Shown: in pieces, positions 15,618 through 38,649 of the stretch
How positions within the stretch are numbered: the stretch's first letter is position 1
Layout: each line of letters begins with the position of its first letter
Assembly (NCBI GenBank): GCA_018698795.1
Contig: JABIPG010000165.1
Coordinates: forward strand, 1 to 44,293
Source of the DNA: Rhodospirillaceae bacterium
GTDB taxonomy: Bacteria > Pseudomonadota > Alphaproteobacteria > Rhodospirillales > Casp-alpha2
Reading direction: 5' to 3'
DNA length: 44,293 nucleotides
Notes under the pieces: generated by a model
The model's input: only the letters and a program-made list of their open reading frames with translations
Told to the model about the DNA's origin: nothing
Database searches by the model: none
Position numbers and translations under genes: made by a program

Positions 15618-15658
15618 GCTTTGACGCTGTCCTAACAAGTGCTTTGAGGCAGTCCTAA
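15618..15658. repeat. Tandem 18-bp direct repeat at the hemY 3' end
   Basis: Two copies, 15618-15635 and 15641-15658, agree at 16 of 18 positions (plus-strand consensus GCTTTGASGCWGTCCTAA). The second copy includes the hemY stop codon. It may be a local duplication or a paired binding site. I see no wider mobile-element context. Confidence 0.5.
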
Positions 15659-20237: not shown

Positions 20238-20972
20238 TCAGTAAGCTAGGTTGACCGTGGCAGCACCGCCGCCCTTAACTTCAACTGTCCCTTTCTTTTC
20301 ACCAAGCACACCGTGGAAAACCTTGATGGTGTATTTACCCGGCGGAACATCTTTGATCTCGAAGCCACCGTCTTTGCCGACCACCGCGTAATAGGGGTTC
20401 TTGGCAACGAAGACGAAAGCATGCATGAAATCATGAGCATCGCATTCGACCTTCATGGCAGTGCCTTTGCGCAGCTTAATTTTCTTTTTGACGATATTGC
20501 CTTTTTCCGGCTGCGAGACGTTCATCACGGTGCGCCGGGCGCGACCGATAAGCTCGTAGGTATGGATGTTGTGCAACACAGGGTCGGAGTTCACAGCCTC
20601 AAGCTCACCACCGTTCTGCATGACAGACAGATAGGGTGCGAAGGCGCACTTCGCTTGATCCATGGTGATTTTCTTGGTGCCAGAAGGGAAACTTTTTCCT
20701 TCCTTCACTTTGTCCAAATAAACAACGGCATCAAGCAGTGCGTCGCCGTTGGCGCGCACGAACGGCACGTCGCGATTGCCGGAGCCGCAGACTTCCGGGT
20801 TTTTCGAAATCGTATAGCTCTTGGATTGAGCCTTGGCGCCACCGAGGCTGACTTTGCCCTTTACGGAGCCACCACCCTTGACGTCCATTACCTTGTATTT
20901 GGCGGCTTCAGCCGACGGCGCCAAGGCCATCGCCAATGCGCCTACCGCGACAAATTTAAACACTGTTTTCAT
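20238..20972 (-). CDS. Secreted cupredoxin-like / carboxypeptidase-regulatory-like protein
   Basis: A 244-residue exported protein. Residues 1-23 are a clear signal peptide ending APSAEA. The body resembles proteins annotated as plastocyanin-like or methylamine-utilisation-like, with candidate copper ligands H134 or H137 (LHNIHTY), C177, H180 and M183 in a C-x2-H-x2-M arrangement (ECDAHDFMHAF). The C-terminal 50 residues (GFEIKDVPPGKYTIKVFHG) form a carboxypeptidase-regulatory-like beta sandwich. C62 and C109 may form a disulfide. It is probably a periplasmic electron carrier or copper protein for the neighbouring respiratory genes. It lies 42 bases downstream of the HEAT-repeat gene and 6 bases upstream of the 44-residue membrane protein. 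Confidence 0.78.
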   Translation of the reverse strand: MKTVFKFVAVGALAMALAPSAEAAKYKVMDVKGGGSVKGKVSLGGAKAQSKSYTISKNPEVCGSGNRDVPFVRANGDALLDAVVYLDKVKEGKSFPSGTKKITMDQAKCAFAPYLSVMQNGGELEAVNSDPVLHNIHTYELIGRARRTVMNVSQPEKGNIVKKKIKLRKGTAMKVECDAHDFMHAFVFVAKNPYYAVVGKDGGFEIKDVPPGKYTIKVFHGVLGEKKGTVEVKGGGAATVNLAY

Positions 20973-23394: not shown

Positions 23395-26067
23395 TTAGAT
23401 GATGTCGCGAGGTGCGAAGGACATGGAACGGAAGGTCCGCTTATAGGCGGATTCACCGATCTTCTTCACTTTCGCTACACCCATCTTGTAGTTGTAGTTA
23501 CCACTGATCCAGTCGACGATCCGGCCCTCAAGGGCGTTCGCCGGCTGTTCGGTGTGCAGGAAGTCCATATAGATGACGCCCTTCTTGATGTGACGCGTCA
23601 CGTGCGCCACGCCGGTCACTGCGGCACGTGTCAATTCCACGTTGCCGGCTTTCATTTGACCGGAGAAGGAGTAGTCAGAACCTTCCACACCGATAACCAC
23701 CTCTTTCAAGGAGGGTACGCGATCAGAGTAGACCATCAGCTGGTCGCCGCTCTCGATGCCGCGCTCTTTTGCGTCATCGGGATGCATCTCGACGTAGTTT
23801 TCGGGCCAGCGCTGCACCACGTACGGACGGCGGCGGTCGTCGAAGCCGGATTGCCAACGTTCGTTGGTACGGCCGGACGTGCACCACAGTTCGTCGCCCT
23901 TCGGATTCATCCATTCCCAATAGTCAGAGAACAAGCCCCACGGGGATTTCTGGATGTTACACCGACCGGTCTGCGAGTTGAAGTGGGTCAACTTCTTGTT
24001 GTACATGTTGCCAGCTTGCGGCCCTTCGGGATCAAGCTTGCGCTGCGTATCGTGCAGACGCTTTGTTCCCATGAGCGTGCCGTCTTGCTTCATGAACACC
24101 GGGCCCTGAATACCGTTGGTCCCAAACTCGTTCATTTTCTGGTGCAGGGTCTTGCCCTCGCGGTGAGCAGCAACCTTGACCATGTGGAAGTCCTTGCGGC
24201 TGCCGCGCGAGAAGCGTGACATTTCTTCAGCAACATCGTTGGAGTTCTTCCAATCGAAGCCTTCGAAGCCCATACGCTTGGCCAGGTTGGCGATAATCCA
24301 CCAATCCGGTTTGGCTTCGCCCGGCGGATCATAGAACTTGTTGTAGAGCCGCAAGCGACGTTCGCCGTTAGCCCGCATAAAGTCCTCTTCACCCCAGGTA
24401 GCGGCGGGGAAGACGATATCCGCAAACTTAGCCCCGATGGGATCGACCAGATAGATATCTTGGTTGATGACCACCATACCGCCCGAGTCGGCACGCGCCT
24501 TCAGCGTGTCGATGATGTCTTCCTTGTCGTAGGAATACACCTGGTTCGGGTTGGCGAGGGTCAGCTCGTGGAACTTCTTAGCCAATTGCTGCGAACCGCA
24601 CATGGATTGGATCCAGGTGTTACCGATAACATGGGCAAATCTCGTATGCCCCGACAGCAGCCAAGTATCCGTATCCAGCGCGCGACGACGACGCCCCGGC
24701 ACCTTCATCGGCGACTTGTTGCGCGGGTACTTTCCGCCGCGCTGGCCGCCACGCTGGTGACCACCGGCCCGACCGACAACCTGACCCGGACGCCCACCGG
24801 CGCCGCAGATGATCGACAACGACGAGATAGCGTTGGTGTTGCCGGTGTTGTTGGACCAGTAGAAACCCTTCTCGATCATGAAGGAGCTCTTGGGCCGCTT
24901 GCCGCCTTTCGGCTTGGCCAACCATTCGGCAGCCGTGCGGATCTTCTTGACGTCGATCCCGGCAACCTTGGCCGCGTGTTCGGGCTTGAACTCGTCTTGG
25001 CTCATGACCCACTTTTTCCAGTCGGCAAAACCCTTGGTCTGGAACTTGCCCCAGGTCGAACGCCACTGCCATGGGGTGTTGCGCGTACCTTGGCCGAAGC
25101 CGGAGTTCGAACCCCACTTGTCGTTGACCCAGTTCTTGATCCAGTCGGAATCTTCCCAACCGTTTTCGACGATGATCCGTGCAATAGCATTGACGACCAA
25201 CAGATCGGTGCCCGGCGTAATGTCGAGCCACATGCCGCCGTTCTTTTCGGCGTATGCGACACCGGCGGTACGGCGCGGCACCATCATGATGACCTTCTGG
25301 CCGTTCTGAATGCCCTTCATGATCCACTGAGTCCACAAGATGGTTTTGGTCTCGTAAGGATCGGTACCGCAGATGAGCAGCGATTCGGCGTTCATCCAAT
25401 CTTCGTAGGACGGACCGAAGTTATCGAAGCCCGCATCGCGGAAACCCGGCGTCGAAGACACATCCGACGGCGTATCGTGGAAGGTGAAGTTGGCCGTATT
25501 GACGTGCCGAAGCGCGTATTTGGTGATGGCGTAGGTGTTCTCCATGTACTGATAGGAGAAGGTCTTCACGCCGTAAGCCAGTTCACCGTGCTTTTCGAGC
25601 ACGTGGTTACCCACCGCAGCCGCGATATCGAGGGCAAAATCCCACGGTACCGGCTGGAGCGTGCCATAGATACGCACCATCGGCGAGGTCAGGCGGTCAC
25701 GAGTAGGCGTCTGCGGGTTGTAGCACTTCTGAGCGATACAGCCGCCGCGCAAGGAGGAATCACCGTCCGTGTTGACGAACTTGGTGTCCTTATCGGGGAT
25801 GATCACTACGTGGTGCGGCTCACCTTTGTGCAGCACGATGTTGTGCTGATTAGGGGCCACCCACGGGCCCAGCGGTTCTACCGGGAAGTCAGCGCCGAAG
25901 GCATTTTGGTCGGCCTTGGGGCCGCCATCGTGTTTACCGGCAACCGGCCAGCGGTAGACCTTGTAGCCGCAAGCGACAATACAATAGTCGCAAGCCGTGG
26001 AGATGACGTCCGCGTTCTTAGGCGGCAGCGGAACGTCAGTTTCAGGAATATAATAGGGTGTCGACAT
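23395..26067 (-). CDS. idrA: Molybdopterin oxidoreductase catalytic subunit, IdrA/AioA type (probable iodate reductase-like)
   Basis: An 890-residue DMSO-reductase-family enzyme of the arsenite oxidase/iodate reductase branch, predicted periplasmic and binding bis-MGD molybdenum. Cluster ligands are C26-x2-C29-x3-C33 in CDYCIVACGYKVYRWP, almost the AioA pattern. A serine (near S105, SSLRGG) occupies the expected fourth-ligand place, which predicts a [3Fe-4S] cluster. There is no signal peptide; as in AioA it is presumably carried out with the Tat-exported Rieske subunit. The TAAGGAGG at the end of the Rieske gene is its ribosome site, 13 bases between genes. I favour IdrA over AioA because two dihaem peroxidase genes lie in the same operon, the known idr signature, and none of the usual aioX/aioS/moeA neighbours is present. 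Arsenite oxidation or another oxyanion remains possible. Confidence 0.8.
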   Translation of the reverse strand: MSTPYYIPETDVPLPPKNADVISTACDYCIVACGYKVYRWPVAGKHDGGPKADQNAFGADFPVEPLGPWVAPNQHNIVLHKGEPHHVVIIPDKDTKFVNTDGDSSLRGGCIAQKCYNPQTPTRDRLTSPMVRIYGTLQPVPWDFALDIAAAVGNHVLEKHGELAYGVKTFSYQYMENTYAITKYALRHVNTANFTFHDTPSDVSSTPGFRDAGFDNFGPSYEDWMNAESLLICGTDPYETKTILWTQWIMKGIQNGQKVIMMVPRRTAGVAYAEKNGGMWLDITPGTDLLVVNAIARIIVENGWEDSDWIKNWVNDKWGSNSGFGQGTRNTPWQWRSTWGKFQTKGFADWKKWVMSQDEFKPEHAAKVAGIDVKKIRTAAEWLAKPKGGKRPKSSFMIEKGFYWSNNTGNTNAISSLSIICGAGGRPGQVVGRAGGHQRGGQRGGKYPRNKSPMKVPGRRRRALDTDTWLLSGHTRFAHVIGNTWIQSMCGSQQLAKKFHELTLANPNQVYSYDKEDIIDTLKARADSGGMVVINQDIYLVDPIGAKFADIVFPAATWGEEDFMRANGERRLRLYNKFYDPPGEAKPDWWIIANLAKRMGFEGFDWKNSNDVAEEMSRFSRGSRKDFHMVKVAAHREGKTLHQKMNEFGTNGIQGPVFMKQDGTLMGTKRLHDTQRKLDPEGPQAGNMYNKKLTHFNSQTGRCNIQKSPWGLFSDYWEWMNPKGDELWCTSGRTNERWQSGFDDRRRPYVVQRWPENYVEMHPDDAKERGIESGDQLMVYSDRVPSLKEVVIGVEGSDYSFSGQMKAGNVELTRAAVTGVAHVTRHIKKGVIYMDFLHTEQPANALEGRIVDWISGNYNYKMGVAKVKKIGESAYKRTFRSMSFAPRDII

Positions 26068-26080
26068 TGATCGTTCCTCC

Positions 26081-26686
26081 TTAGCCCTGCAAGTTGTCGT
26101 AGCGGCCGAAAATCAGGCCGAAGACACCGACGGCGAAAATGTTATCGCCTTCCAGTTCCAGCAAAATTTGCGGCAGGCTCTGATAGGCCTGGCCGGAAAT
26201 AAGAATGCCGTGCCGGGTCAGGTCATAGGTGCTGAGATGCAGCGGGCACGCGCCCAGGGACTTGGTATCGGCCTTGTATGTGCCGCCCAAGGGTCCACCC
26301 TGGTGAGTGCAGGTGTAGTTGAAGGCAACCACGTCGCGGTTGGGACCGATGCCGCCACCCGACTGCTGGCCGAGCTTGACCAGCATGGATTCGGAGTACG
26401 CCCCCTCATCCGGGTATTGGAAGTCAACCGGCTCATCTTGCTTCAGCTTGCTGAGCTTGCCGATCAGCTTGCGAGGATAAGTGGCGACCTGGGCCGGCAC
26501 CTCCTTCGCGAACGGCGTGCCAGCGTTCATGGCGACCATGACCGTCGCAGTGGAAACACCTGAAGTAAACAGGAACTTCCGTCGCGACATTAGACATTTG
26601 CCGCCTTTGTGTTCGGTCGAATCGGTGACCGCTTGTGCCGATGCCTCTTGGGCCTCGGCGATGGGGGTGTGAAGTTTCGTATCCAT
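26081..26686 (-). CDS. idrB: Tat-exported Rieske [2Fe-2S] subunit (IdrB/AioB type)
   Basis: Small subunit of the molybdoenzyme, 201 residues. A Tat signal follows an extended 33-residue N-region: MSRRKFLF at residues 33-40, then a hydrophobic stretch to about residue 60. Rieske ligands are C126 and H128 in CTHQG, and C147 and H150 in CPLH. The two extra cysteines that form a disulfide in most Rieske proteins are replaced by G131 and L149. The late AVGVFGLIFGR segment matches the AioB C-terminus. GGGAGG precedes ATG 26686. The gene lies between the second peroxidase (14 bases) and the catalytic subunit. It should pass electrons between a cytochrome c and the molybdenum subunit. Confidence 0.85.
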   Translation of the reverse strand: MDTKLHTPIAEAQEASAQAVTDSTEHKGGKCLMSRRKFLFTSGVSTATVMVAMNAGTPFAKEVPAQVATYPRKLIGKLSKLKQDEPVDFQYPDEGAYSESMLVKLGQQSGGGIGPNRDVVAFNYTCTHQGGPLGGTYKADTKSLGACPLHLSTYDLTRHGILISGQAYQSLPQILLELEGDNIFAVGVFGLIFGRYDNLQG

Positions 26687-26700
26687 TTCAGATACCTCCC

Positions 26701-27861
26701 TTACTGAGCTTCGGCTACATCAGGCAACGGGGCATAAGGCGGCAGCTTCGGCTTGGCCATTTTGATCTCTGGCCCGCTGAACGCCTCAATGAACGCTACC
26801 AAGTCGTCGACTTGCTTCTCGGATAGGCCGAGCGGCTTGATCAACTTGGTTTTGTTCTTGGCAATCTTGCCGTCGGTAAACTCGTTCGAACCGCCACCGG
26901 CGTTGTAGAAATTCACCACTTCCTTCAAATCCCAGAAGGACCCGTTGTGCATATAAGGTGCGGTGTACTTCGCGTAACGCAGGCTAGGCGTACGGAACTT
27001 GCCCATGTCGGATTTCTCCTTGGTCCGGAAATAGAGACCGGGATCATCCTTCAATTTGCGGTACAGTTCCTGAGTCACGCCTTTGGCATAGATCTCATAA
27101 CGGAACGTGATCTGCGCCAAGCTATCTTCATTCCAACGACCTGCTGGCGGCACGCCGAGATTGTAGAACTTCTCGTCGGTCGTCAGCGCACCATTGTGGC
27201 ATTCGATGCAATTGGCCTTGCCATTGAACAACTTCATGCCGCGCACCTGCTGCTTGGTAAGGGCTTTTTTGTCACCCTTCAGGTACTTATCGACGGGCGT
27301 ATCCTTTTGCACCAAGGTCCGCTCAAATGCGGCAATCGCGCGCCAAGCATCACCGATGCGGGGCCACGGTGTGCCAAACACTTCACGGAACAGTCCACGG
27401 TACTTCGGGATAAAAGCCAAGCGAGCTTCCATCACATCGGATTCACCATTGCCGGCAACGGCGCCGGTTGCGGCACTCTTAGCTTGTTTTTCCAACGAAC
27501 CAGCTGACGTAGCCCAGAAAAATCCACTGAGATAGGCCGAGTTGATCACGGTCTGGCTGTTGCGCCAGTGTACCGTGGCTGGATAGCCGCGCGACAAATC
27601 GTCCGAGAAGCCCCAGCCCTGTTCCGGCTCGTGGCACTGCACGCAACCGGTCGAGGCATCACCGCCGAGACGGGGATCGAAGAACAGCATTTTGCCAAGC
27701 TCGATCTTTTTTGGCGATTGAGGGTTGTCAGCCGGGATCGGCGGATCGCCCAATGGCGCCAACGGCGGGTTTACGTCCGCCAGGGCTGCTCCAGCCGCGA
27801 TCACGGACACACCGTAGATCGCCATGGCGAGGAGCAGGGTTTTGCTCTGTAGGGTTTTCAT
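26701..27861 (-). CDS. Periplasmic dihaem cytochrome c peroxidase (MauG/CcpA family, IdrP type)
   Basis: A 386-residue exported protein with a signal peptide ending near residue 28 (AAGAALA). It has two haem c sites, C73-VQ-C-H77 and C218-IE-C-H222, the layout of bacterial dihaem peroxidases, plus the YMHNGSFWDLKEVVNFYNAGGG C-terminal pattern of that family. It is predicted to reduce hydrogen peroxide with electrons from cytochrome c; in idr loci such proteins are thought to detoxify a reduction by-product. ATG 27861 is preferred because GAGGAG lies 8 bases away; ATG 27867 is only 2 bases from that site. It sits between a second peroxidase (14-base gap) and the Rieske gene. I cannot say which of the two corresponds to IdrP1 and which to IdrP2. 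Confidence 0.83.
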   Translation of the reverse strand: MKTLQSKTLLLAMAIYGVSVIAAGAALADVNPPLAPLGDPPIPADNPQSPKKIELGKMLFFDPRLGGDASTGCVQCHEPEQGWGFSDDLSRGYPATVHWRNSQTVINSAYLSGFFWATSAGSLEKQAKSAATGAVAGNGESDVMEARLAFIPKYRGLFREVFGTPWPRIGDAWRAIAAFERTLVQKDTPVDKYLKGDKKALTKQQVRGMKLFNGKANCIECHNGALTTDEKFYNLGVPPAGRWNEDSLAQITFRYEIYAKGVTQELYRKLKDDPGLYFRTKEKSDMGKFRTPSLRYAKYTAPYMHNGSFWDLKEVVNFYNAGGGSNEFTDGKIAKNKTKLIKPLGLSEKQVDDLVAFIEAFSGPEIKMAKPKLPPYAPLPDVAEAQ

Positions 27862-27875
27862 ATCCATATCTCCTC

Positions 27876-29006
27876 TTAGTTCTTGGCCTTGCGCCAATCT
27901 TTGATCACCGGGTAGTCGGTCGGGATTTTGTCCTTCCAAACGTACGCGGCGCCAGTGAGCGGCTTGCCGGAGAGGGATTCAAGGAAGGCAACCAAGTCGC
28001 CCTGCTCGGCCTTCGACAGGTTCAACGGCTTCATGCGCGAATCCTTGTTCGGATCATCGCCACCGCCTCTGTTGTAGAAGGCAACAACCTGTTTCAAGCT
28101 CTTCATCATGCCGTTGTGCATATACGGAGCCGTATATTTGAGCTCACGCAGGCTCGGCGTCATGAATTTACCGATGTCAGAACCGTCCGCTTTGTGCGTG
28201 CGAATGTGCGCACCCACGTCACGGCGTTGGTTGTAGATATTCTCAATACCCATAAACAGGCCGAACGCCACATAGGTGGTATGACGCATCGGGTTCTTCC
28301 AGATTTCCGGATTGTTCGGAACACCAGTGTTATAGGGCTGATCATCGGTGAAACGCGGACCAGAGTGGCATGCGGCGCAACCGGCCTTGCCCTTGAACAA
28401 CTCAAACCCACTTTGCGCCCGGGCCGACAGTTTGCCGGCATCAAAAGCGGAACCCGTGGAGATCAGCGTTTTCAAGTATTCGGGAATAGCCTTACGCACA
28501 GAACCGTTGGACGGCTCACCGTAACCGGCTTCCTTGAACATCTTGACGTAAACCGGATCTTGCTTAATGCGCTCCTGCATGAGGCGCATATCCATGTTCA
28601 TCATCCAGTCCTCAGTGAGACTTTCACGAGTCACATCGTTCAAGTTGGTGCCGAGACGGCCATCCCAGAACCAAGCCGCGCGATGCGCGGTATTGATCAA
28701 TGACGGCGCATTTCGGAATCCGCCTGAGCCGGGATAAGCCTTGGCCAACGGCAAGCCGTCGGCAAAGCCCTTGTCAGGCATGTGGCAGCTGGCGCAGCTA
28801 ATGGCCGCATCGCCGGAAAGCCGGACATCGAAAAACAAACGTTTCCCGAGGGCCGCTTTCTTGGCATCGACTTTCAGCTTCGGCACCGGGCCGAACGCCT
28901 TGTTGTCAGCAGCTTCAGCGATGCCGGTCAGCACCAAGGAAGCGATAATTGCAAGCGCACCAGCACAAGCGCCGGTGAGCCATTTTTGAAGAACTCTGGG
29001 TTTCAT
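27876..29006 (-). CDS. Periplasmic dihaem cytochrome c peroxidase, first gene of the Idr-like operon
   Basis: A 376-residue exported protein with a signal peptide (residues 1-32) and two haem c motifs, C71-AS-C-H75 and C210-AA-C-H214. FFDVRLSGDAAISC and YTAPYMHNGMMKSLKQVVAFYNRGGGDD are family-typical and closely parallel the next gene, so the pair probably arose by duplication. The strong site GGGAGGAGG precedes ATG. It is the first gene downstream of the sigma54-type promoter at 29077-29093, giving a leader of about 60 bases. The peroxidase role is expected from family. The pairing of two such genes with an AioBA-like pair is what points to iodate reduction. Confidence 0.83.
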   Translation of the reverse strand: MKPRVLQKWLTGACAGALAIIASLVLTGIAEAADNKAFGPVPKLKVDAKKAALGKRLFFDVRLSGDAAISCASCHMPDKGFADGLPLAKAYPGSGGFRNAPSLINTAHRAAWFWDGRLGTNLNDVTRESLTEDWMMNMDMRLMQERIKQDPVYVKMFKEAGYGEPSNGSVRKAIPEYLKTLISTGSAFDAGKLSARAQSGFELFKGKAGCAACHSGPRFTDDQPYNTGVPNNPEIWKNPMRHTTYVAFGLFMGIENIYNQRRDVGAHIRTHKADGSDIGKFMTPSLRELKYTAPYMHNGMMKSLKQVVAFYNRGGGDDPNKDSRMKPLNLSKAEQGDLVAFLESLSGKPLTGAAYVWKDKIPTDYPVIKDWRKAKN

Positions 29007-29253: not shown

Positions 29254-31536
29254 TCAGTTTTCGGCGTTCATCTCGAAGCTACGGCGTTGGCGACGCACTG
29301 CGAGAACGAAAAGCAACGCCGCCAACAAGGCCATGCCTGTCGGCACCCCGTAGAGCACCGCTGGGCGAGCTTCGGGCTCCAGCAGCAGCCAATACCACGT
29401 GCTGAAGGCGTGTCGCCCACCTTTCTCACCGGCTAGGCCATCCCAATTGCCGAAAGCGATGGGAATATAGCGTCCAGCTTCGAATTGCAGATCTGCCTCG
29501 TCTTCCGTGGCGAATTTACGGCGAAACACGACGCTCCATTGCCCGTCTTTCCAAGCGCCACTGCCGGAAAGGCCGCTGTCCGTTCGGGGTGCAGGCTTGG
29601 CGCCTGGGCCAGTGGCATCCAGGATCGCCGCGATAGCCGGCACCTTGGGCTCGGCACTGGGCGCACGCCAATACCACATATTGACCGGATGCTTCTTGTC
29701 ACCATGACGGAACCACGGCTTTTCGCTGGTTTCCGGAATGACGACTGGGAACTGCACCGCGACCGCATCGGCGGTGGGCGGCACATCCTTTAGGCGGTAT
29801 TGCTTTTCAAGCTTATCGCCGGGTACCGAGTAGGTCCGATCATCGACATCGAGCCGGATGGCGACATCGGTGTCATTGAACAGAACACGGGCCACAACGG
29901 TATCGTTCAACGACCAATAGAGGCGCGGCTCCTTAATAATGTTCGGCACCATCGAGAACGCGGTTGGTGCAGCCATATCCCACGCGGGATCATCTGAAGA
30001 TGTCGGCAAATCGCCTGCGACACGAACGCCGCGCAGGACGGTTTTGGCTGGGTCCACGGGAACCGCCGTGTCACGCAATGTCATCACGTAATTGGCGATG
30101 TCCCAGCGGTCGTTTTCTTTCATCACTGTAGTGTGTTCCGGCATCGGCGTGCTACGGATGCCGGTGGAGATGCGTTGAAAAACATCCTGCGTGTCAAAGG
30201 TGGCGCGCCAGGTGCGCGGACGAGTCAGGTTGCGGGGCCAGATGCGCTGCTCCCAGTCATCTTTCAACACCTTGCCCGACGTCACATTGCCGCGCCCCTT
30301 ATCGCCATGGCATTGGACGCATGCCTTGACGAACAGTTCGCGACCACGTGCTACCGATTCAGGTGTGCTCGCAACGCGCGTCCCCTCGGCGATGGGCTGA
30401 TGTTCAATTTCCTCCTCTTCCCACTCGCCAAACACCTTGATCTGGTGAATGAGCGCATCAATCTCGGCCTTGGTCAGGATGTCCTTCCAGGCCGGCATGG
30501 AGGTGCCGGGAAGACCTTCCGCGATCGTGTTGTAGAGATCTGCGTCAGTCGGAAACTCATCGTCCGCGTGGGTGGTCTTGTACTTAAAGGAAGCGAGCGT
30601 GAAGTCGCGCGGCAAGGGATACATGAACTCCGCCGCCGGCCCCATGCCATCACCTTCGTCGCCATGGCAGTGCGCGCAGCGTTTTTGATAGACGGCGGTC
30701 ACCTGTTCTTTACTCAGCTTACCGTCCGCGGGCGCCGTATCGTCGGCTTTTGCGGAGGCATCGCCCTCTTCCTTGGTTTCCAGTTCCCACGACCGCGGCA
30801 CGTGACCTGTATAGTCGTAGAGGAACAAGATAATCTTCCACACCTCGTCCTCGCTCAGCATTTCGTGCCACACAGGCATGGCTGAGGCCCAAGGTGCCGC
30901 ATTGCGCGGCAAGCCGGGCCCGCCTGTGGTGATGCGCCAGAACAAGTACGATTCCTGCAACTGGGCAATGGTGCCGACATCTTGGAAATTGGCCGGGCGC
31001 GGATTAAAGCCATCAGCGAAATGGCCGCGGCCATCCAGCAAATCGCCGTGGCAATAGATGCAGTTCTTGTAGTAAAGCTCGCCGCCCTCACCGACCATTT
31101 CGCGATATTCGTCACTGCCCTTAGCGGCTTTTTCACGCAATGGGTTGGTAAGCTTCAATAGGTTGAAGCTTTTGCCATAGACGCGGATTGAGCCCGGCGG
31201 CGCGGGATGCACGGTGCGCAGTTCCACCGGCGCATCCAGGTTGGGCTTGACCTGGTCGTAGGAAAACCAGCCAACGCCGACAACCAAAAGAACTCCGACG
31301 ACAGCCCGCAGCGCCGCCAAATTCGGCTGACCCAAAAGTGCGCGGATTGGCGCCGCCATCTGCTTGGCCGTTTCGTCGTTGAAGGTCCCGACCATGATGA
31401 TGCCGATAACACTGAAGATCATGTACTGGATCAGCAGTGATTTCGGCAACGGTGGTTGCAACCCGTAAGCGAAGGCCAGATACAGGACAACCGCAGCCAA
31501 TACGGAAAGCAGCAAGGGATGGCGCAGGAAATTCAT
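29254..31536 (-). CDS. Membrane-anchored trihaem cytochrome c with haem-b-binding EB_dh-type domain
   Basis: A 760-residue electron-transfer subunit. N-terminal membrane helices lie at about 7-26, 35-50 and 75-92. Three haem c motifs follow: C159-IY-C-H163, C287-AH-C-H291 and C406-VQ-C-H410, each in a cytochrome c domain. Residues about 498-715 resemble the haem-b-binding domain of DMSO-reductase type II gamma subunits (ethylbenzene dehydrogenase, NxrC-like), with WDMAAPTAF, LYWSLNDTVVARVLFNDTDVAIRL and the FEAGRYIPIAFGNWDG segment. A last helix (about 728-748) anchors the C-terminus. It starts 2 bases after the dihaem gene and ends the bd-like operon. It probably relays electrons between the membrane complex and periplasmic carriers; the complete combination in one polypeptide is unusual. 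Confidence 0.85.
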   Translation of the reverse strand: MNFLRHPLLLSVLAAVVLYLAFAYGLQPPLPKSLLIQYMIFSVIGIIMVGTFNDETAKQMAAPIRALLGQPNLAALRAVVGVLLVVGVGWFSYDQVKPNLDAPVELRTVHPAPPGSIRVYGKSFNLLKLTNPLREKAAKGSDEYREMVGEGGELYYKNCIYCHGDLLDGRGHFADGFNPRPANFQDVGTIAQLQESYLFWRITTGGPGLPRNAAPWASAMPVWHEMLSEDEVWKIILFLYDYTGHVPRSWELETKEEGDASAKADDTAPADGKLSKEQVTAVYQKRCAHCHGDEGDGMGPAAEFMYPLPRDFTLASFKYKTTHADDEFPTDADLYNTIAEGLPGTSMPAWKDILTKAEIDALIHQIKVFGEWEEEEIEHQPIAEGTRVASTPESVARGRELFVKACVQCHGDKGRGNVTSGKVLKDDWEQRIWPRNLTRPRTWRATFDTQDVFQRISTGIRSTPMPEHTTVMKENDRWDIANYVMTLRDTAVPVDPAKTVLRGVRVAGDLPTSSDDPAWDMAAPTAFSMVPNIIKEPRLYWSLNDTVVARVLFNDTDVAIRLDVDDRTYSVPGDKLEKQYRLKDVPPTADAVAVQFPVVIPETSEKPWFRHGDKKHPVNMWYWRAPSAEPKVPAIAAILDATGPGAKPAPRTDSGLSGSGAWKDGQWSVVFRRKFATEDEADLQFEAGRYIPIAFGNWDGLAGEKGGRHAFSTWYWLLLEPEARPAVLYGVPTGMALLAALLFVLAVRRQRRSFEMNAEN

Positions 31537-31538
31537 GG

Positions 31539-32381
31539 CTACTGCCCCCCGCCTTCGGGAAGGTTCATCAGGTAGTCAACAATCAGGTTCAATTCACTGA
31601 TCCGCATCTGTTCGGCATAATCGGGAGGCATGGTATCGGCCTCAAAACCCTTGGCGATGTCGGCGTTGGGCTCGAGGATCGCCTTGCGCAGGCCTTCGAG
31701 GCCCAGGCGTTTACCGGTGCCGTTCAGTTTCGGGCCTGTATCGGCGCCCGATCCAGCGAGATCATGGCACGCGCCGCAGGTAAACTTCTCAATGGCCGCT
31801 TCCGCCGTTTCCGCCGGACCTTCATCGTCTTCTTCATCCGCGTCGGCCTCGGCGTCACCGGCTTCGGGCAAAGACACCGTCGCCTCCACGCCGGCACGGC
31901 TTTGCAGGAACGCGATCAACGCATTGATCTGTGGCTCTGACAGGGAAATCGGCGCACCGGAAACATCGGGCATGGGGCTGACTTTGTCGTCACTGCCTTT
32001 TTTGCCGAAGCCCGCGACCACGTAAGCCGAAGGATCGACCATGGATTCACGCAGGTAGGTCTCGATCGCCTCGGCGCCATCTTGACCCTTGGCTTCGCCG
32101 GCATAGCTCGCGTCTTTCAAGCGTTCGTCGAAGGCGGTCGCCAGATCCATTTCCAACAGGTCCGGCGCACGGCCAAGATTATTGTGGCAAAGCGTGCAGG
32201 TTCCCTTGCCGGAAAACAGCTTCTCACCCCACGCGAGCATGCCGGCCATATCCATTTCACCGGCGACGATGGGCTCGTCGTCTTCCGGCGGATTGGATTG
32301 CACTTGCGGCAAAATATTGGCGAACAAAGTGTAGCAAAGCAGCACGATGACGCTGAAGCCGATGACGCGAACAAAAATCAT
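31539..32381 (-). CDS. Membrane-anchored dihaem cytochrome c
   Basis: A 280-residue protein with one N-terminal membrane helix (residues 4-24) that looks like an uncleaved anchor. Two haem c motifs, C62-TL-C-H66 and C202-GA-C-H206, define two cytochrome c domains joined by a very acidic linker (about 175-195, rich in Asp and Glu). Candidate methionine ligands lie in VSPMPDVSG and DTMPPDYAEQM. It overlaps the upstream CydA-like gene by 4 bases and is followed after 2 bases by the trihaem gene, so the three probably form one complex with equal stoichiometry. It likely carries electrons between the bd-like subunit and the trihaem subunit or soluble cytochromes. Confidence 0.86.
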   Translation of the reverse strand: MIFVRVIGFSVIVLLCYTLFANILPQVQSNPPEDDEPIVAGEMDMAGMLAWGEKLFSGKGTCTLCHNNLGRAPDLLEMDLATAFDERLKDASYAGEAKGQDGAEAIETYLRESMVDPSAYVVAGFGKKGSDDKVSPMPDVSGAPISLSEPQINALIAFLQSRAGVEATVSLPEAGDAEADADEEDDEGPAETAEAAIEKFTCGACHDLAGSGADTGPKLNGTGKRLGLEGLRKAILEPNADIAKGFEADTMPPDYAEQMRISELNLIVDYLMNLPEGGGQ

Positions 32382-34171
32382 TCCGCCGCCCCCGAAGACT
32401 TCTGTTGTTCGGTACTCCCCAACTGGCTGAGCCAGAAAATGAACACGATCAACGCCATGAACAGCAGCGTAATAATGGTGATGGTATTACCGGCTTCGCC
32501 GATGGTCGGGATATAGGCTTCCGCGGATTTGTCCGGCATCACCGTATAAACGTGCCAATGGGTGCGCAGGCTGGAGCGGATATAGCCCATCAACGCCATC
32601 AACCAAGTGAAAGCCACCGGCAATACGAACAGCGCATACTGCGAACGCGCCGACATACGGCCCCATCGCACTTCCGTTTGGGTCGCGCCGCGCAACATGA
32701 AGAAATCGATGATACCAGCGAAAATGATGATCGACAGTGTCGTCACCACCTGCGGCACGGAAGCGCCGACCTTATAGACGGTGGGCGTGAAATAGCCGTA
32801 AATCCCGGCACCAATGATATTGAGACAACCAACGACATACAGCGCCACGATCAACGCGTTGCCCATCGGCGCCCAGGACACGGTCGGGATGCGGCTGGAA
32901 CGGTAGAACATCTGAAATGACAAAAACGTAAAAACCAGCATCAGGTTCACGGCGATATTCTTCGCCGGCATGATCCCCAGCGGCCCCAGCATCTTGTGAT
33001 GCGTGCCGCCCAGCTGCTGTACTTCCTGCGGGGTGAGAATGAGCGAGTGCGGCGTCACCCAGACCAAGAACCCGCCAACCAACACGACAGCGATATATTT
33101 CACGTACGATCCGTAGTCCGCGCCGCGTTCAGTCCGCCCAAGCCCACACCAGAGGTAATAATTGGCCGCCAGCAAAATGGTGCCGATCAGCACCGCCTGG
33201 ATGATAAACAACCAAGCCAGTACGCCGCCCATAGCCGTGATGCCCATTTGCTGACTGTAGGCGTAAATTTCCGCCATCAGCCAATAGCCGGCAAACGGCA
33301 ACGGCAAAAAGCCCGCCACGGCGATGATGTTGGATGTATAGCCCATCCAATCGTAATGGCCGCGTTCGCTATCGCTTGATACGCTCAAGAAACGATAAGC
33401 CGCATAGGCTCCAACGATAGCGCCGCCATAGGCGATGTTGGCTAAGAAGCGGTGCAGGTTGAGTGGGTTCCAAAGCGGGTTGCGGGTCGCTTCCCAGACG
33501 GTTCCGGTAATAACACCCGATGGGTCAACGCCCGCCGGCGACATCATGAAGCTGGCCCAGGCGTTAGCCACGAACATCAGCGTCAACCCGATGGTATTGA
33601 GCGCTAAGCCGATGCTCATGTGGTACCACTTGCGGTCACCGTAACGCAGCGCCTTCCAGGAATAGAAATAGATATACAAGAACACCGATTCGAGCACGAA
33701 CAGGATGGCGTAGATAAGCGTTTGCCCTTGAAACACCTTGAGCAGGAATCCCATCAGGTGCGGATAAAATAGAAACAGCGCGAGGGTCAGTCCGCCGCCG
33801 GCAAGGGCCGTGAACGAATAGGCCGCCATGGAAATTTTCATGAACTCGTGCGCCATGTCGTCGTAGCGATCATCCTTGGAGACGACACCGACGAATTCGA
33901 TACACAGCACAAAAAAAGGCACCGCCAGCACGAAGGCCGCTAAAAACAGATGCATCTGCGACAGGCCCCAGACCAGGGTACGGCTATTGATGCCGCCGAT
34001 CTGAGGGTAGTCGCCGCGCGTCGGCTGCACGAATGCAGGCGCCGAACCGGCAGTTGCGTCGGCGCCTTCCGCCGCAATGGCCAATTCCGGCAAGGCCAAT
34101 ACCGCCACGCTGGCGGCTCCGGCGGCCCAGACGGCCAATGCGATCCAAGGCAGAAGACGGGGGGCCCTCAT
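32378..34171 (-). CDS. Cytochrome bd-like oxidase subunit I homologue (CydA-like), no CydB partner
   Basis: A polytopic protein of 597 residues from ATG 34171; the longer frame upstream only shadows the small membrane genes. A signal-like helix precedes residue 35, then more than a dozen hydrophobic segments follow. By eye it aligns to E. coli CydA: H74 with His19, E161 (VLES) with Glu107, H240 with His186, and VANAW with VANGW. I153 stands where CydA has Glu99. I find no GRQPW quinol-loop motif. No CydB gene is nearby; cytochrome c genes follow instead. CydA-like proteins lacking CydB are known from nitrite-oxidising Nitrospira. It may accept electrons from cytochrome c and reduce oxygen, or pass electrons from quinol to the cytochromes. 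The stop-start overlaps (ATGA) on both sides show tight coupling. Confidence 0.82.
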   Translation of the reverse strand: MRAPRLLPWIALAVWAAGAASVAVLALPELAIAAEGADATAGSAPAFVQPTRGDYPQIGGINSRTLVWGLSQMHLFLAAFVLAVPFFVLCIEFVGVVSKDDRYDDMAHEFMKISMAAYSFTALAGGGLTLALFLFYPHLMGFLLKVFQGQTLIYAILFVLESVFLYIYFYSWKALRYGDRKWYHMSIGLALNTIGLTLMFVANAWASFMMSPAGVDPSGVITGTVWEATRNPLWNPLNLHRFLANIAYGGAIVGAYAAYRFLSVSSDSERGHYDWMGYTSNIIAVAGFLPLPFAGYWLMAEIYAYSQQMGITAMGGVLAWLFIIQAVLIGTILLAANYYLWCGLGRTERGADYGSYVKYIAVVLVGGFLVWVTPHSLILTPQEVQQLGGTHHKMLGPLGIMPAKNIAVNLMLVFTFLSFQMFYRSSRIPTVSWAPMGNALIVALYVVGCLNIIGAGIYGYFTPTVYKVGASVPQVVTTLSIIIFAGIIDFFMLRGATQTEVRWGRMSARSQYALFVLPVAFTWLMALMGYIRSSLRTHWHVYTVMPDKSAEAYIPTIGEAGNTITIITLLFMALIVFIFWLSQLGSTEQQKSSGAAE

Positions 34172-34296
34172 GACGGCATCAGGGTCCATCGAACCGGCAA
34201 TCCCTGACCTTCCATGATCAACCAATCGATGCCGTAGAAATAGGCGGCCCACAAGGCGACCCCCAAAACAAAAACCATCCAGCGGTTCGCCACCAT
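34168..34296 (-). CDS. Small membrane protein, 42 residues, coupled to the bd-like subunit
   Basis: ATG 34296 opens a 42-codon frame whose stop overlaps the start of the CydA-like gene (ATGA at 34168-34171). The protein has one membrane helix (RWMVFVLGVALWAAYFYGIDWLI) and a short polar tail. The longer frame from 34356 would overlap the preceding small gene and reads as non-native. Size, location and single helix recall CydX/CcoQ-type accessory peptides of terminal oxidases, though I see no sequence identity that proves it. Confidence 0.65.
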   Translation of the reverse strand: MVANRWMVFVLGVALWAAYFYGIDWLIMEGQGLPVRWTLMPS

Positions 34297-34313
34297 GTCT
34301 ATTCCGTTTCCAC

Positions 34314-34424
34314 TCAATGCGTCGGCGCCACGCCATGCGCGTAGATCAACAACCACCAGAAAAACACCAGCGCAGCAACGAAACTGGCGGCGAAAACAGC
34401 GGGACCCAATTTAGAATGTCGCAA
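34314..34424 (-). CDS. Small membrane protein, 36 residues, TTG start; first gene of the bd-like operon
   Basis: Below the usual ORF size limits. From TTG 34424, preceded by GGGAGAGG at 8 bases, the frame encodes a peptide with a basic start (MRHSKLGP) and one helix (AVFAASFVAALVFFWWLLIYA), ending 17 bases before the next small gene. No ATG is available, but the ribosome site, hydrophobic pattern and position about 40 bases after the predicted sigma54 start make it credible. Probably an accessory peptide of the bd-like complex. Confidence 0.5.
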   Translation of the reverse strand: MRHSKLGPAVFAASFVAALVFFWWLLIYAHGVAPTH

Positions 34425-34629: not shown

Positions 34630-35997
34630 TCATTTGCCAGCAGACAGATCATACTCACGAATTCGCCGATCCAAGCGAGGTCTGCTGATCCCTAAAATGT
34701 CGCACGACTTGCCCTTGTGCCATCCCGTCTGGTTGAGGACATGAAGGATATGTTGCCGCTCGATCTCTTTGAGAGATGCTGATGAAACCCTAACTTCGGG
34801 ATCATTGACGGTTTCATCGACAAGTTCGTGGAGATCGTCTTGGTTCGTGATTTCCGCCAGCTGCGCAATACTGAGGCTACTTCCTGGCGCCATCACCACG
34901 GCCTTCATTAATACGTTTTCCAGTTCTCGGACATTCCCCGGCCAATCCTTGGCGGCGAGGATCTCCATGACCTCGCTGGGCACGCGGCGGATACCTTTGC
35001 GCAAATCTCTATTGATTTTTTTTACCAGATGCTCGACCAACAAAGGGATATCCTCCCGGCGATCGCGAAGCGCCGGAAGACTGATCGTGACCACGTTTAG
35101 GCGGTAATAAAGATCTTCGCGAAACTCTCCTTTGGCAACTTTATCTTCCAAGTCGACATTGGTGGCCGTGACGAAGCGGGCCAGGCTGTGTTTCGTGGTG
35201 GAGCCCCCGACCGGCATGTATTCGCGCTCTTCCAATAGCCTCAGAAGCTTGCCTTGCATACGCGGCGATAGCTCCCCAACCTCATCGAGGAACAATGTGC
35301 CATCGCCAGCCAGTTCGACTTTGCCTTTCCGGCTCGATACCGCCCCTGTGAAGGCGCCTTTCTCGTGGCCAAACAGCTCGCTTTCCAAGAGTGTTTCCAC
35401 CAGCGCGGCGCAGTTGACGGCAACAAACGGCTGTGACGCATCCTGACTGACCTTGTGAACGGCCCGCGCCACCAACTCTTTTCCAGTACCCGATTCGCCA
35501 AGCACTAAAACAGTGACTCGGCTTTGCGACACCATACCAATGCTCTTGAACACTTCTTTCATGGCACGGCTGCGGCCAATGATCGTGCCACCGACATCGC
35601 TTGAATCGAGCACCAATGCGTCGCCTGATTCCTCGGTATGCATGATCAACGCGCGATCAATAGCCGCTTCAAGCTCGTTTATGTCGATGGGTTTTTGGAT
35701 ATAGTCGACCGCACCGCCGTGCATGGCAGCGACCGTACTGTCCAAATCGTGGAAGGCGGTAATCATAATGACCGGCGTCGTGGGATATTTCTCGCGGATG
35801 TCTTCAAGCAACGACAACCCGTCTCGTCCAGGCATGCGAATATCGGAAACCACAACGTCGGCAGTATGATCGGCCAATGCGGATAATCCACTGTCCGCGT
35901 CACCTGCAGTACCGACATCAAAGCCCCGCTCACTGAAGTGTAATTTCAGCGTTCTGAGGCTCGTCTCATCATCATCAACTATTAGAATTCGGGGCAT
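34630..35997 (-). CDS. Sigma54-dependent NtrC-family response regulator
   Basis: A 455-residue activator from ATG 35997 (MPRILIVDDD); the upstream extension is a shadow of the kinase gene. The receiver domain (1-120) has the acidic pocket D8-D10 and phospho-acceptor D52, with the T and K of VIMITAF and IQKP. The AAA+ domain (about 150-385) has Walker A GESGTGKE, the GAFTGA loop that contacts sigma54, and Walker B GTLFLDEV. The C-terminal Fis-type helix-turn-helix (about 410-452) includes CDILGISRPRLDRRIREY. The gene overlaps the kinase gene by 23 bases. Its nearest downstream operons both carry -24/-12 promoters, so it most likely switches on the bd-like and Idr-like operons, comparable to AioR in arsenite oxidisers. 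Confidence 0.93.
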   Translation of the reverse strand: MPRILIVDDDETSLRTLKLHFSERGFDVGTAGDADSGLSALADHTADVVVSDIRMPGRDGLSLLEDIREKYPTTPVIMITAFHDLDSTVAAMHGGAVDYIQKPIDINELEAAIDRALIMHTEESGDALVLDSSDVGGTIIGRSRAMKEVFKSIGMVSQSRVTVLVLGESGTGKELVARAVHKVSQDASQPFVAVNCAALVETLLESELFGHEKGAFTGAVSSRKGKVELAGDGTLFLDEVGELSPRMQGKLLRLLEEREYMPVGGSTTKHSLARFVTATNVDLEDKVAKGEFREDLYYRLNVVTISLPALRDRREDIPLLVEHLVKKINRDLRKGIRRVPSEVMEILAAKDWPGNVRELENVLMKAVVMAPGSSLSIAQLAEITNQDDLHELVDETVNDPEVRVSSASLKEIERQHILHVLNQTGWHKGKSCDILGISRPRLDRRIREYDLSAGK

Positions 35998-38353
35998 CAC
36001 TCGGCGATTTATCGGTGGGCAAGGTGGGCAAAGTAAACCGGACCACTGTCCCTTCACCTTGATATGAATCAACTTCGACCGCGCCGCCATGCTGTTCGAC
36101 AATACGTTTCACGATCGCCAGCCCAAGGCCTGTTCCTTTCGCTCTCGTCGTGAAAAACGGCTCCAGAACTCTGTCGAGAACGTCGGGTTGAATGCCAATT
36201 CCGGTATCGCGCACGCTAACCTGCACATTAGGGTCGTCACCGCCCATAATCATAGTGCTATCGATGCGCAGCATGCCGCCGTCGGGCATGGCTTGCAGCG
36301 CGTTTCCAATGAGGTTGCGCAGCACGGCCAAAACTTTGGAACGATCACAATAAGCTTTCGGCACATCGCTGCCGCCATGACGCTGGACGTCGATATCGCC
36401 CGCCGAAATGCGCTGGCTATCGGCGACGATCGCTTCTTCAACAATTTGGTCGAGATCGTGCCAATCTTGCTGCAACCGATCAGGTCGAGCGAAAGCCAGC
36501 ATGTCACGCATGATGTCTTCCATATACTGAACCTGATCGAGGCCAATACGGCAATGTTCCCAGTCTGCCGTTTTCTCCGATTCTGCATCTTGGCGGCGGA
36601 ACAAAATCTGTAGATTCATTTTGATCGTGGACAAGGCATTTCGCAGATCGTGAGCGATCATGCTCGCCATCTGCCCCATGGCGCGAAGACCCTGGGTTTC
36701 AGCGATTTCCCGCGATCGTTCTTCAACCTCTTTTTCCAGCTGTTCGCGGTAAGCACGGGCCAGAGAAATATCGCGATGCACACCCAGCAGCGAAACGATT
36801 TTGCCCGAGTCGTCATGAATCGGGCTCATGGTCAAATCGACGGGATACTCGTCGCCATTCTTGCGCCGGTTCCACAACTCGCCGCGCCAAGAGCGCCCTT
36901 CCTCAACGGCTCTTCGCAGCGCGTCGAGGACCGCACGAGATGTCTTTGGCGAAGCCGTCAGCCCGGGCGTTTCGCCAATTGCATCCTCGGCGCTGTAACC
37001 GGTGGTCTTTTCAAAGGCCGGATTGACGTAGTAGATGCGGCTATCCGAATCCGTCAACACGATCGCATCAGCGGCATCGGCAACCGCCTGGGCGAAAGCG
37101 CGAAGCTCATTTTCCGACGCACTGACGCGTTCCGCCATGCGGTTAAACTCGGCGGCCAAGGCACCGATTTCATCGGCGCTCGAGACATCAACGCGATGGC
37201 CACGATCACCCCGAGCAAACTGTTGCACGCCATTTTGCAATTGTTTGAGCGGCGTGGTGATGTGCCACGCGATAAAAGCACCGCCAACACCAACCACCAA
37301 AATACCGAACACCCCGACCAACAGAAACGACCCTAATGAGGTTTTCAGGGCGATATAGCTCTCATCGGGCGACTGAGTGACCACAATGTTCCATGGCGGT
37401 AGATCAAACGCACTGCGGAGATCGTTCACCGGGCGCACGGGTACGATACAAGCCAATCGCTGCCAGTACGGCCATGCCCCGGCCTCCTCCAGTGCAATCC
37501 AATAGGCATCCGCTTCAAACTGCGCCATTGAAGTTGGGTTTTGCGGCGGTCGCCGGCGCCCCATGGCGCGAACCAAAAATGCGCGGGCAACGCCGGCCAG
37601 CGGCGCGCCGGCATAATCAACAGCATGAACCGCACCTGTGGCGCCGAAACGAACCGCGTTCAACTCTTTTTCAACATCGGCATAATCGAACTCAGCGGTA
37701 ACGAAACCAACGATATCGGTGCCTGCCCAAATCGGTGTGGCAAAGAGAATTTCACTTCTTTCCCGGTCCAAATCCACGTAAACGAAATGCTTATCGCGCT
37801 TAATCACCGCTAAATACCACGACGCTTTTTCCGCTACTCGAGCGGCAGGCGGACTGCTGGCGGCAAGCGCGTTCGCATAAATGTCAAAGACCGTCAGCCG
37901 CAACAAGGCGGGCCCTTCCAATCCTTTCAATACAGAGAGCCGATGCGATAGTTGCGGATGGAGGGTTTTCATGCGGGCTGCTGAAGATTTGCTCGCTTTC
38001 CATTCCTGCTCGACGCGTTTTATCCGCGCTTGTCGCCATTCCAACGAATAGCGTCGATAGAGGACAAATTGCTCAAGCGCCACTTCGGTCGTCAATGAAT
38101 CGGTCGCCAAGTCACCAACCAGTCGGCGTTGACGTTCGAACGTGTCGCTGAATTGCTCGGCTGTGCGCGAACCGATCTGACAGAAGGTCTGGCCCAGGGT
38201 TTCTTGAATGGCCTGGATACCCGTGGCGTAAACCACCACCACACCGGTGGACACGGCACCGACCGCACCGAGAATGAACCAAAGGACCAGCCGCCCCCTG
38301 ATTCCGACGGGCATCCATGAGCGGCCACCGATATGATTTTTGGCTAGCGACAC
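35975..38353 (-). CDS. Membrane sensor histidine kinase (periplasmic sensor, HAMP, PAS)
   Basis: A 792-residue kinase from GTG 38353; ATG 38314 is the alternative start and leaves domain content unchanged. Helix one lies at about 20-44, then a periplasmic region of about 290 residues that looks like a Cache-type sensor, helix two (about 340-365), HAMP (366-412), PAS (about 415-530) with NPAFEKTTGYSAEDAIG, a coiled linker, and HisKA with H568 in MIAHDLRNAL. The ATPase domain has N-box NLIGNALQAMPDGG, DTGIGI and GTGLGLAIV. It is co-transcribed with the sigma54 regulator and is its evident partner. A periplasmic sensor fits detection of an external oxyanion or redox state, but the ligand is unknown. 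Confidence 0.92.
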   Translation of the reverse strand: MSLAKNHIGGRSWMPVGIRGRLVLWFILGAVGAVSTGVVVVYATGIQAIQETLGQTFCQIGSRTAEQFSDTFERQRRLVGDLATDSLTTEVALEQFVLYRRYSLEWRQARIKRVEQEWKASKSSAARMKTLHPQLSHRLSVLKGLEGPALLRLTVFDIYANALAASSPPAARVAEKASWYLAVIKRDKHFVYVDLDRERSEILFATPIWAGTDIVGFVTAEFDYADVEKELNAVRFGATGAVHAVDYAGAPLAGVARAFLVRAMGRRRPPQNPTSMAQFEADAYWIALEEAGAWPYWQRLACIVPVRPVNDLRSAFDLPPWNIVVTQSPDESYIALKTSLGSFLLVGVFGILVVGVGGAFIAWHITTPLKQLQNGVQQFARGDRGHRVDVSSADEIGALAAEFNRMAERVSASENELRAFAQAVADAADAIVLTDSDSRIYYVNPAFEKTTGYSAEDAIGETPGLTASPKTSRAVLDALRRAVEEGRSWRGELWNRRKNGDEYPVDLTMSPIHDDSGKIVSLLGVHRDISLARAYREQLEKEVEERSREIAETQGLRAMGQMASMIAHDLRNALSTIKMNLQILFRRQDAESEKTADWEHCRIGLDQVQYMEDIMRDMLAFARPDRLQQDWHDLDQIVEEAIVADSQRISAGDIDVQRHGGSDVPKAYCDRSKVLAVLRNLIGNALQAMPDGGMLRIDSTMIMGGDDPNVQVSVRDTGIGIQPDVLDRVLEPFFTTRAKGTGLGLAIVKRIVEQHGGAVEVDSYQGEGTVVRFTLPTLPTDKSPSDAPNSNS

Positions 38354-38649
38354 GCCTCGTCAATCCTTTGTTCCATTCGGCGAAGATAGGACTCGATCGA
38401 TTCCCCCGCCTGCTGCGGAATGAAATAAATCAATTTGGCCGCGACGATAAAGGGTCTTCGGCTTTGTTCGCCGGCCGGTTGCTGTTCCGTCAGAATTTTT
38501 CGAACATATCCCAAATGATTTTCCGGTGCGTCGCAATATCTTTCCAACGCGATGGTTCCAGCCCGCCACTCGGCAAACCGAAAAACCATGAGCAATGAAA
38601 GACATGCCACGGCGAAAACAATCAATATCCTTGTTGTGCCTGTTGGCAC
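38344..38649 (-). CDS. Membrane-anchored hypothetical protein, 101 residues
   Basis: Not recognised. One N-terminal hydrophobic helix (RILIVFAVACLSLLMVFRF, residues 7-25) is followed by a soluble, probably periplasmic, charged domain with two cysteines, one near residue 39 and one at residue 100. The stop codon overlaps the kinase GTG start by 10 bases, so it is the first gene of the sensor operon. It may help the kinase sense its signal. I know of no family to name. Confidence 0.7.
   Translation of the reverse strand: MPTGTTRILIVFAVACLSLLMVFRFAEWRAGTIALERYCDAPENHLGYVRKILTEQQPAGEQSRRPFIVAAKLIYFIPQQAGESIESYLRRMEQRIDEACR

Follow-up and report, generated by a model that had tools for sequence, protein, structure and literature searches.

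A predicted bd-like haem complex with di- and trihaem cytochromes beside an iodate-reductase-type cluster in a Rhodospirillaceae contig

The five-gene locus and its CydA homologue

The 44,293-nt contig JABIPG010000165.1 of a Rhodospirillaceae bacterium, referred to throughout as the window, carries on its minus strand (29254-34424) a unit of five tightly packed genes for a predicted bd-like membrane complex; all other window genes located below lie on the same strand. Two very small genes come first. These are s1 (34314..34424; TTG start assumed) and s2 (34168..34296), which encode single-helix membrane proteins of about 36 residues and of 42 residues, respectively, and the stop of s2 overlaps by 4 bases the ATG at 34171 of a gene for a homologue of CydA (32378..34171; the open reading frame (ORF) listed from 34336 merely opens at the first mechanical ATG). 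The CydA homologue has 597 residues and about 13 long helices in its structural model. Its gene overlaps by 4 bases that of a dihaem cytochrome c (31539..32381; 280 residues, CxxCH at 62 and 202), and a gap of 2 bases leads to the gene for a trihaem cytochrome c (29254..31536), a 760-residue protein with CxxCH at 159, 287 and 406 and an EB_dh domain at 516-709, which resembles the alternative NxrC (alt_NxrC) proteins discussed below. All three large proteins score above Pfam gathering cut-offs, for PF01654 (Cyt_bd_oxida_I, 8.8e-15), for cytochrome c families and for EB_dh (1.9e-13). A preliminary description of this DNA had reported the coupling of two tiny membrane proteins with the CydA homologue and with dihaem and trihaem/EB_dh genes, and the coordinates and Pfam matches confirm it.

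The CydA assignment extends to the fold. The model (predicted local distance difference test score, pLDDT, 75; predicted template modelling score, pTM, 0.78) aligns with 6rx4_A (E. coli bd-I) over 351 residues, with a Z score of 29.4 and a root-mean-square deviation (rmsd) of 4.5 Å. ActF of alternative complex III (9ilt_F; Z 18.9, 8% identity) also appears in the fold table and was not used as evidence, since helical bundles score high. In E. coli CydA, H19 and H186 are haem histidines, E445 is a haem ligand, and the K252, E257 region of the Q-loop holds the quinol residues. The E. coli residues H19, H126, E107, N148 and H186, a set that includes residues of the proton path, correspond to H74, H184, E161, N203 and H240 of the CydA homologue. 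Because these equivalents are invariant in all 42 aligned rows, the oxidase-type haem and proton path are, as judged by alignment, retained, and the proton-path residues would favour a haem site with a role in catalysis or in proton movement. Glu99 is not conserved (its column holds I, V, W, G, L and F across the 42 rows), and Glu445, in a placement from sequence alone, aligns with S533/S534 near an RxxW motif. Alignment with quinol-oxidase CydA (18 reference rows plus E. coli, 12 of 30 being left out) revealed no counterpart of the Q-loop and its quinol residues; about 28 residues (289-316) separate the sixth helix (267-288) from the helix at 317-346.

Much of this pattern would suit a terminal oxidase that is fed by cytochrome c and belongs to the non-quinol bd branch (OR-C/OR-N), O2 being reduced by way of periplasmic cytochromes. 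The OR-N and OR-C families of the cytochrome bd superfamily are described as having a CydA homologue without a quinol site and cytochrome c as the likely partner (PMC10839748, PMC13189123), and for OR-N the quinol segment is said, at second hand, to be absent, with cytochrome c as the likely donor. The window shares the missing quinol site and the likely cytochrome c partner with these families, which are known here by description only, and differs from them in having a single CydA homologue rather than CydAA'. The invariant haem and proton-path residues favour such an oxidase; the unconserved Glu99 and the serine aligned with Glu445 count against it, and we regard it as a possible but clearly secondary explanation.

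No CydB gene accompanies the CydA homologue. A whole-genome search, made for the window's genome only (83.9% complete, 5.2% contamination), found no PF02322 (CydB) match, the same search being positive in 10 of 14 controls, and the CydA homologue is the sole PF01654 match there. An E. coli CydB query gave no match at any of 96 loci with the complex and was positive at 30 of 30 control CydA loci. At this level of completeness, CydB is likely to be absent from the window's genome. The preliminary description had proposed that cytochromes replace CydB: no CydB was found, either in this genome or beside the 96 related loci, and nothing indicates that the cytochromes occupy the place of CydB. An ordinary cytochrome bd quinol oxidase, with its CydB in an unassembled part of the genome, might be argued from the PF01654 score over cut-off and the incomplete assembly; it is hardly credible in view of the CydB counts, and is already contradicted by the missing Q-loop. 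A plain CydAB oxidase that has lost its CydB is ruled out on the same grounds (no PF02322, no CydB at the 96 loci, no Q-loop). The complex shares with E. coli bd-I (CydABX) the CydA fold, the equivalents of H19, H186, E107, H126 and N148 and one or more small membrane peptides, and differs from it in lacking CydB and the Q-loop, in not keeping Glu99, in the serine aligned with Glu445 and in its attached cytochromes c.

Conservation and kinship with complexes of nitrite oxidisers

The CydA homologue was used to scan public genomes, and from the 159 relatives recovered the best 80 loci, in 79 genomes, were retained; judged by record titles, most of these are metagenome-assembled genomes of Alpha- and Gammaproteobacteria, and one is from a Lambdaproteobacterium. 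A survey of gene order among genomes, which the preliminary description had suggested, bears out the arrangement. The dihaem gene lies downstream of cydA at all 74 loci with at least 900 nt downstream and the trihaem gene at 66 of the 67 with at least 1.7 kb, and a relaxed search found matches to s1 and s2 upstream of cydA at 70 and 64 of 71 eligible loci, respectively. With both cytochrome genes so regular, the five-gene arrangement is not due to chance. The 4-base overlap of the cydA and dihaem genes was seen again at 45 of 71 loci. Third subunits are uniform in their haem sites, with three CxxCH in all 60 that were read at more than 700 aa. The second gene encodes two such motifs in 54 of 74 cases, three in 18, four in one and none in one, so that "dihaem" is not universal.

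Variants of the layout occur. The CydA homologue and the dihaem cytochrome are apparently fused in a single 963-aa frame in one genome (L145, 7823-10714). In some alphaproteobacterial relatives a CydA paralogue of about 600 aa lies close to another of about 720 aa; each is accompanied by cytochromes of its own, and the third subunit is split between a one-haem gene and a two-haem gene. The longer paralogue (about 720 aa) or its flanking cytochromes are found at L138-L142, L147-L149, L151 and L153, in some cases directly after the iodate-reductase-type idr genes described below. Among near relatives the complex is patchy, being carried by 8 of the 100 genomes searched when the window's own genome is counted among the 8; that search located it in genomes G012, G022 and G064.

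The cytochrome subunits point to a known system. The dihaem protein matches 7zs0_A (Kustd1711) at 3.4e-16 as a single sequence and at 1.6e-27 as a profile. The trihaem protein matches 6h5l_B, which we take to be Kuste4573, at 1.6e-36 in an alignment that spans haem domains two and three. For its EB_dh domain the matches are the gamma subunit of ethylbenzene dehydrogenase (2ivf_C, EbdC) and subunit C of nitrite oxidoreductase (NXR; 7b04_C, presumably from Kuenenia). Kustd1711 is described as a +350 mV dihaem cytochrome encoded in the anammox nxr gene cluster (PMC11791136). A gene set common to Nitrospina, Nitrospira and Kuenenia is reported to comprise NXR, cupredoxins, one monohaem and one dihaem cytochrome, an alternative NxrC that has haem c sites, and a bd-like protein; the last is described as having 14 helices, no quinol residues and extra helices in the position of the Q-loop (PMC3578206). 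One cluster of N. moscoviensis, reported as highly transcribed, joins alt_NxrC_2 and bd-like_3 with two c-type cytochromes and is duplicated as bd-like_4; the role of this bd-like/alt_NxrC complex is stated there as undetermined (PMC6606698).

The comparison with the Nitrospira and Nitrospina bd-like proteins rests on these published descriptions, not on sequences. Common to the two systems are a bd-like subunit without quinol residues, in which extra helices replace the Q-loop, an EB_dh protein with haem c sites beside the bd-like gene, a Kustd1711-type dihaem cytochrome and a cupredoxin, the last likened by the presence of a cupredoxin-like fold. A second bd-like copy nearby is also shared by some relatives, the window itself having one only. 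The systems differ in that the partner here appears to be IdrABP1P2 and there NXR, in that three haems c are here gathered in one third subunit, and in that the window's complex is found in Alpha- and Gammaproteobacteria. A possible further difference lies in the radical SAM, protoporphyrinogen oxidase (PPOX), PCP_red and two-component genes that the window's island carries as well. NxrA is longer than 890 aa. No ORF in the window exceeds that length, and neither NxrA nor NxrB was found in the window's cluster, whose molybdenum enzyme is IdrAB.

A new type of respiratory complex, as the preliminary description had it, is therefore ruled out: the same parts are already described from nitrite-oxidising and anammox bacteria, and solved proteins related to that system (Kustd1711 and 6h5l_B) match two of the three large subunits. 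The combination of three c-type domains with an EB_dh domain, called rare at that time, has its precedent too, in that EB_dh proteins with several haem c sites are known, the Nitrospina alt_NxrC copies having 1-3 (PMC3578206). Rather, the five-gene complex, considered jointly with the Idr partnership set out below, is probably the proteobacterial version of the complex that nitrite-oxidising and anammox bacteria encode in their NXR clusters. This kinship also bears on the terminal oxidase alternative. Anammox bacteria, whose nxr cluster encodes related subunits, are called strictly anaerobic (PMC3578206, PMC11791136), and this would argue against O2 as the only acceptor.

The iodate-reductase-type cluster and the accessory genes

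Four genes follow the complex in the order idrP2-P1-B-A, as in iodate-reductase clusters. They encode two MauG/CCP-type dihaem proteins, IdrP2 (27876..29006) and IdrP1 (26701..27867; ATG start assumed), the Rieske subunit IdrB (26081..26686; TIGR02694 over cut-off) and an IdrA-like molybdopterin subunit of 890 aa (23395..26067) of the AioA/IdrA family. In an IdrA tree of 69 rows (quick method; rows repeating a locus left out) the window protein groups with rows from Idr clusters, and three AioA rows separate from the IdrA branch with a Shimodaira-Hasegawa-like approximate likelihood ratio (SH-aLRT) of 100, no row being recorded as a laboratory-tested IdrA. The window's IdrA is 48-49% identical to IdrA of Azonexus and Thiothrix plasmids. 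Gene set, order P2-P1-B-A and IdrA branch are those of the published idrABP1P2 cluster; the descriptions given of that cluster make no mention of a bd-like complex, by which the window's cluster is accompanied (PMC8692401, PMC11445184, PMC10989891). Among the open-licence papers listed in searches, none with an iodate-reductase term names cytochrome bd, and one marine nitrite-oxidiser paper and one mangrove paper mention iodate and cytochrome bd once each. As a separate observation, an idrP2-P1-B-A cluster lies on the 1.7 Mb plasmid pTHAF190c_a of Vibrio sp. THAF190c (L105; IdrA 66% identical).

The two systems are found together far beyond the window. A match to idrA scores above the limit on 35 of the 80 related loci, and L090, where the stretch holds idrB and ends within idrA, brings the number to 36. 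At 47 loci the sequence runs on for 6 kb or more past the trihaem gene; one or more idr genes occur at 36 of these, P2, P1 and B all three at 33, and no idr gene at the remaining 11. The other 44 loci represent 43 genomes, 39 of which carry IdrA elsewhere, in some just beyond the fetched stretch; altogether IdrA is present in 75 of the 79 genomes with a close CydA, the remaining four (L060, L061, L094 and L104) being assemblies of 2.1-2.5 Mb. On at least four occasions (L062, L073, L075 and L095) IdrA lies on a different contig of the draft. Among 385 Alphaproteobacteria drawn regardless of either gene, 11 have the complex, 12 have IdrA and 7 have both (Fisher p 1e-9, or 2e-8 after the window's own genome is dropped). 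The preliminary description had guessed at a tie to the Idr-like enzyme, and these counts support it.

Such a tie could also come about if the complex and idr shared a horizontally moved respiratory island, the association reflecting hitch-hiking and not function. The description of idrABP1P2 as a mobile island (PMC8692401) agrees with this, as do the gene order kept across alpha- and gammaproteobacterial loci and the patchy presence of the complex in near relatives. IdrA is retained with the complex, however, even where it lies on another contig, and the CydA homologue query matched no plasmid record, including the plasmids that carry Idr clusters; hitch-hiking seems an improbable explanation. 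The four full-length sequences from Alphaproteobacteria that have Idr only cluster together in the IdrA tree, and their group lies within rows whose genomes carry the complex, a position that would fit loss of the complex.

Beyond idrA the window continues with genes for a HEAT-repeat protein (21015..23240), a cupredoxin-like protein of 244 aa (20238..20972), a protein with matches to universal-stress-protein (USP) and PCP_red (protochlorophyllide-reductase-type) domains (18349..20001), a NirJ2/AhbD-like radical SAM protein with a PCP_red domain (17043..18401; below the NirJ2/AhbD cut-offs, start approximate) and a PPOX-like flavoprotein (15655..17046; TIGR00562 at 291 bits, cut-off 97.85). 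NirJ2 and AhbD act on haem precursors, and the radical SAM, PPOX-like and USP/PCP_red genes (15655-20001) resemble a dedicated tetrapyrrole pathway. Neither these linked tetrapyrrole genes nor the cupredoxin gene figured in the preliminary description. The model of the cupredoxin-like protein (pLDDT 90.5) aligns with plastocyanin 2plt (Z 12.1, rmsd 2.3, 87 aligned), and its residues H134, C177, H180 and M183, invariant in 27 aligned rows, form a His-Cys-His-Met set that we take to be the type-1 copper ligand pattern.

These genes recur with the complex. At L053-L104, where they lie divergently upstream of it, the HEAT gene was found at 37 of 41 eligible loci, the cupredoxin gene at 34 of 36, the USP gene at 29 of 31 and the radical SAM gene at 26 of 30; the 28 genomes of L025-L052 include 24 with the radical SAM protein. 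When 48 genomes were compared, it was found in 12 of 13 that bear the complex, in none of 5 with Idr only and in none of 30 with neither, and in the sole miss (G142) the contig ends inside the cluster. The radical SAM gene tracks the complex rather than Idr, and its assignment as an Idr gene is ruled out by these counts. For the HEAT gene it is the assignment to the complex alone that is ruled out, because four genomes that lack the complex (G281, G431, G246 and G273) also have it after IdrA, and the protein is possibly an Idr maturation factor. L215-L218 are loci at which a HEAT-repeat gene follows idrA without the bd-like complex. The complex's own accessory set, a new point, consists of the radical SAM protein, the protoporphyrinogen oxidase, the PCP_red protein and the cupredoxin; one search of open-licence papers found no haem-modification-like gene set linked to such a complex.

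On the other side of the complex lie genes for an NtrC-type sigma-54 response regulator (34630..36102 as the ORF is listed; the true start may lie downstream), a sensor histidine kinase (35975..38353; HAMP, PAS and HATPase domain matches) and a 101-aa protein with no family match (38344..38649). The response regulator adjoins the complex also at L025, L026 and L048. The small protein, of about 100 aa, recurs by the complex, or by the kinase or PPOX gene of the island.

Proposed function and its bearing on iodate reduction

The haems c, the EB_dh haem, the cupredoxin, the bd-like subunit without a quinol site and the frequent presence of a periplasmic molybdenum enzyme point to a complex for electron transfer between membrane and periplasm. 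The bd-like haem subunit, the dihaem and trihaem/EB_dh cytochromes and one or two of the single-helix proteins would together form the membrane complex, in which five predicted haems c and the predicted EB_dh haem may form the electron path linking the membrane with IdrAB, with the cupredoxin as the likely shuttle to IdrABP1P2. The radical SAM, PPOX and PCP_red proteins would produce a special haem of the CydA-like subunit or insert it there. By comparison of homology, gene order, Idr co-occurrence and accessory genes, the locus thus appears to encode an NXR-type membrane complex partnered with IdrABP1P2, probably with the cupredoxin between them. That the proteobacterial partner is an iodate-reductase-type cluster is the new point, and is held, together with the NXR-type identity, with moderate confidence.

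The direction of electron flow is a more tentative matter. Feeding of iodate reduction from the membrane is the most likely direction, at slightly under an even chance; the passing of electrons from cytochrome c to O2 comes next and is distinctly less likely, and some other activity is a little less likely again. The window's genome also has genes for cytochrome c1 and haem-copper oxidase, so that the complex is not the sole route for quinol or O2, and since Idr can also exist without the complex, its role would be an addition to Idr. The haem-copper oxidase genes likewise speak against a terminal oxidase, which would leave the tie to Idr unexplained except through removal of O2. In that last respect the oxidase explanation includes possible protection of Idr, which is described as oxygen-sensitive (PMC11445184).

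Several points weigh against a partnership of the NXR-type complex with Idr that is fed from the membrane. No canonical quinone site was found in the CydA homologue, which speaks against a quinol-fed route, and association of the subunits, direction of the electrons and reduction of iodate by the window's IdrA are predictions. Contigs that are separate in a draft may adjoin in the genome itself, and Fisher's test treats genomes as unrelated, with kinship uncorrected. Idr occurs without the complex in 5 of the 12 IdrA-bearing Alphaproteobacteria and in the plasmid Idr clusters, and so does not need it. Conversely, 4 of the 11 sampled complexes are without IdrA; two of these (G142 and G151) have a more distant CydA and one (G409) is a fragment, but the CydA of the fourth (G177) scores as high as several IdrA-bearing ones. 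Finally, genes around idrABP1P2 are described as poorly conserved (PMC8692401).

A wider role can be imagined, in which the bd-like/alt_NxrC complex would be a general membrane partner of periplasmic molybdenum enzymes whose substrates are oxyanions of high potential (iodate here, nitrite/nitrate in NXR bacteria). It would then be a third kind of quinone-cytochrome c oxidoreductase, in addition to bc1 and alternative complex III, with a specially modified tetrapyrrole supplied by the radical SAM/PPOX/PCP_red enzymes; we consider this unlikely as a whole.

The complex itself is real, well conserved and statistically tied to Idr, and is a variant of an already known, unexplained complex. It points to a candidate haem-modifying gene set. 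Some of the relatives' metagenome-assembled genomes are titled Roseovarius, Aliiroseovarius and Marinosulfonomonas, and Roseovarius azorensis and Aliiroseovarius sediminilitoris are reported as cultured iodate reducers (PMC11445184). If some cultured iodate-reducing strains carry the complex, the function of bd-like/alt_NxrC complexes would be opened to study by knock-outs. The association suggests that part of the Idr-bearing bacteria may have an extra electron route, which would be relevant to marine iodine cycling.

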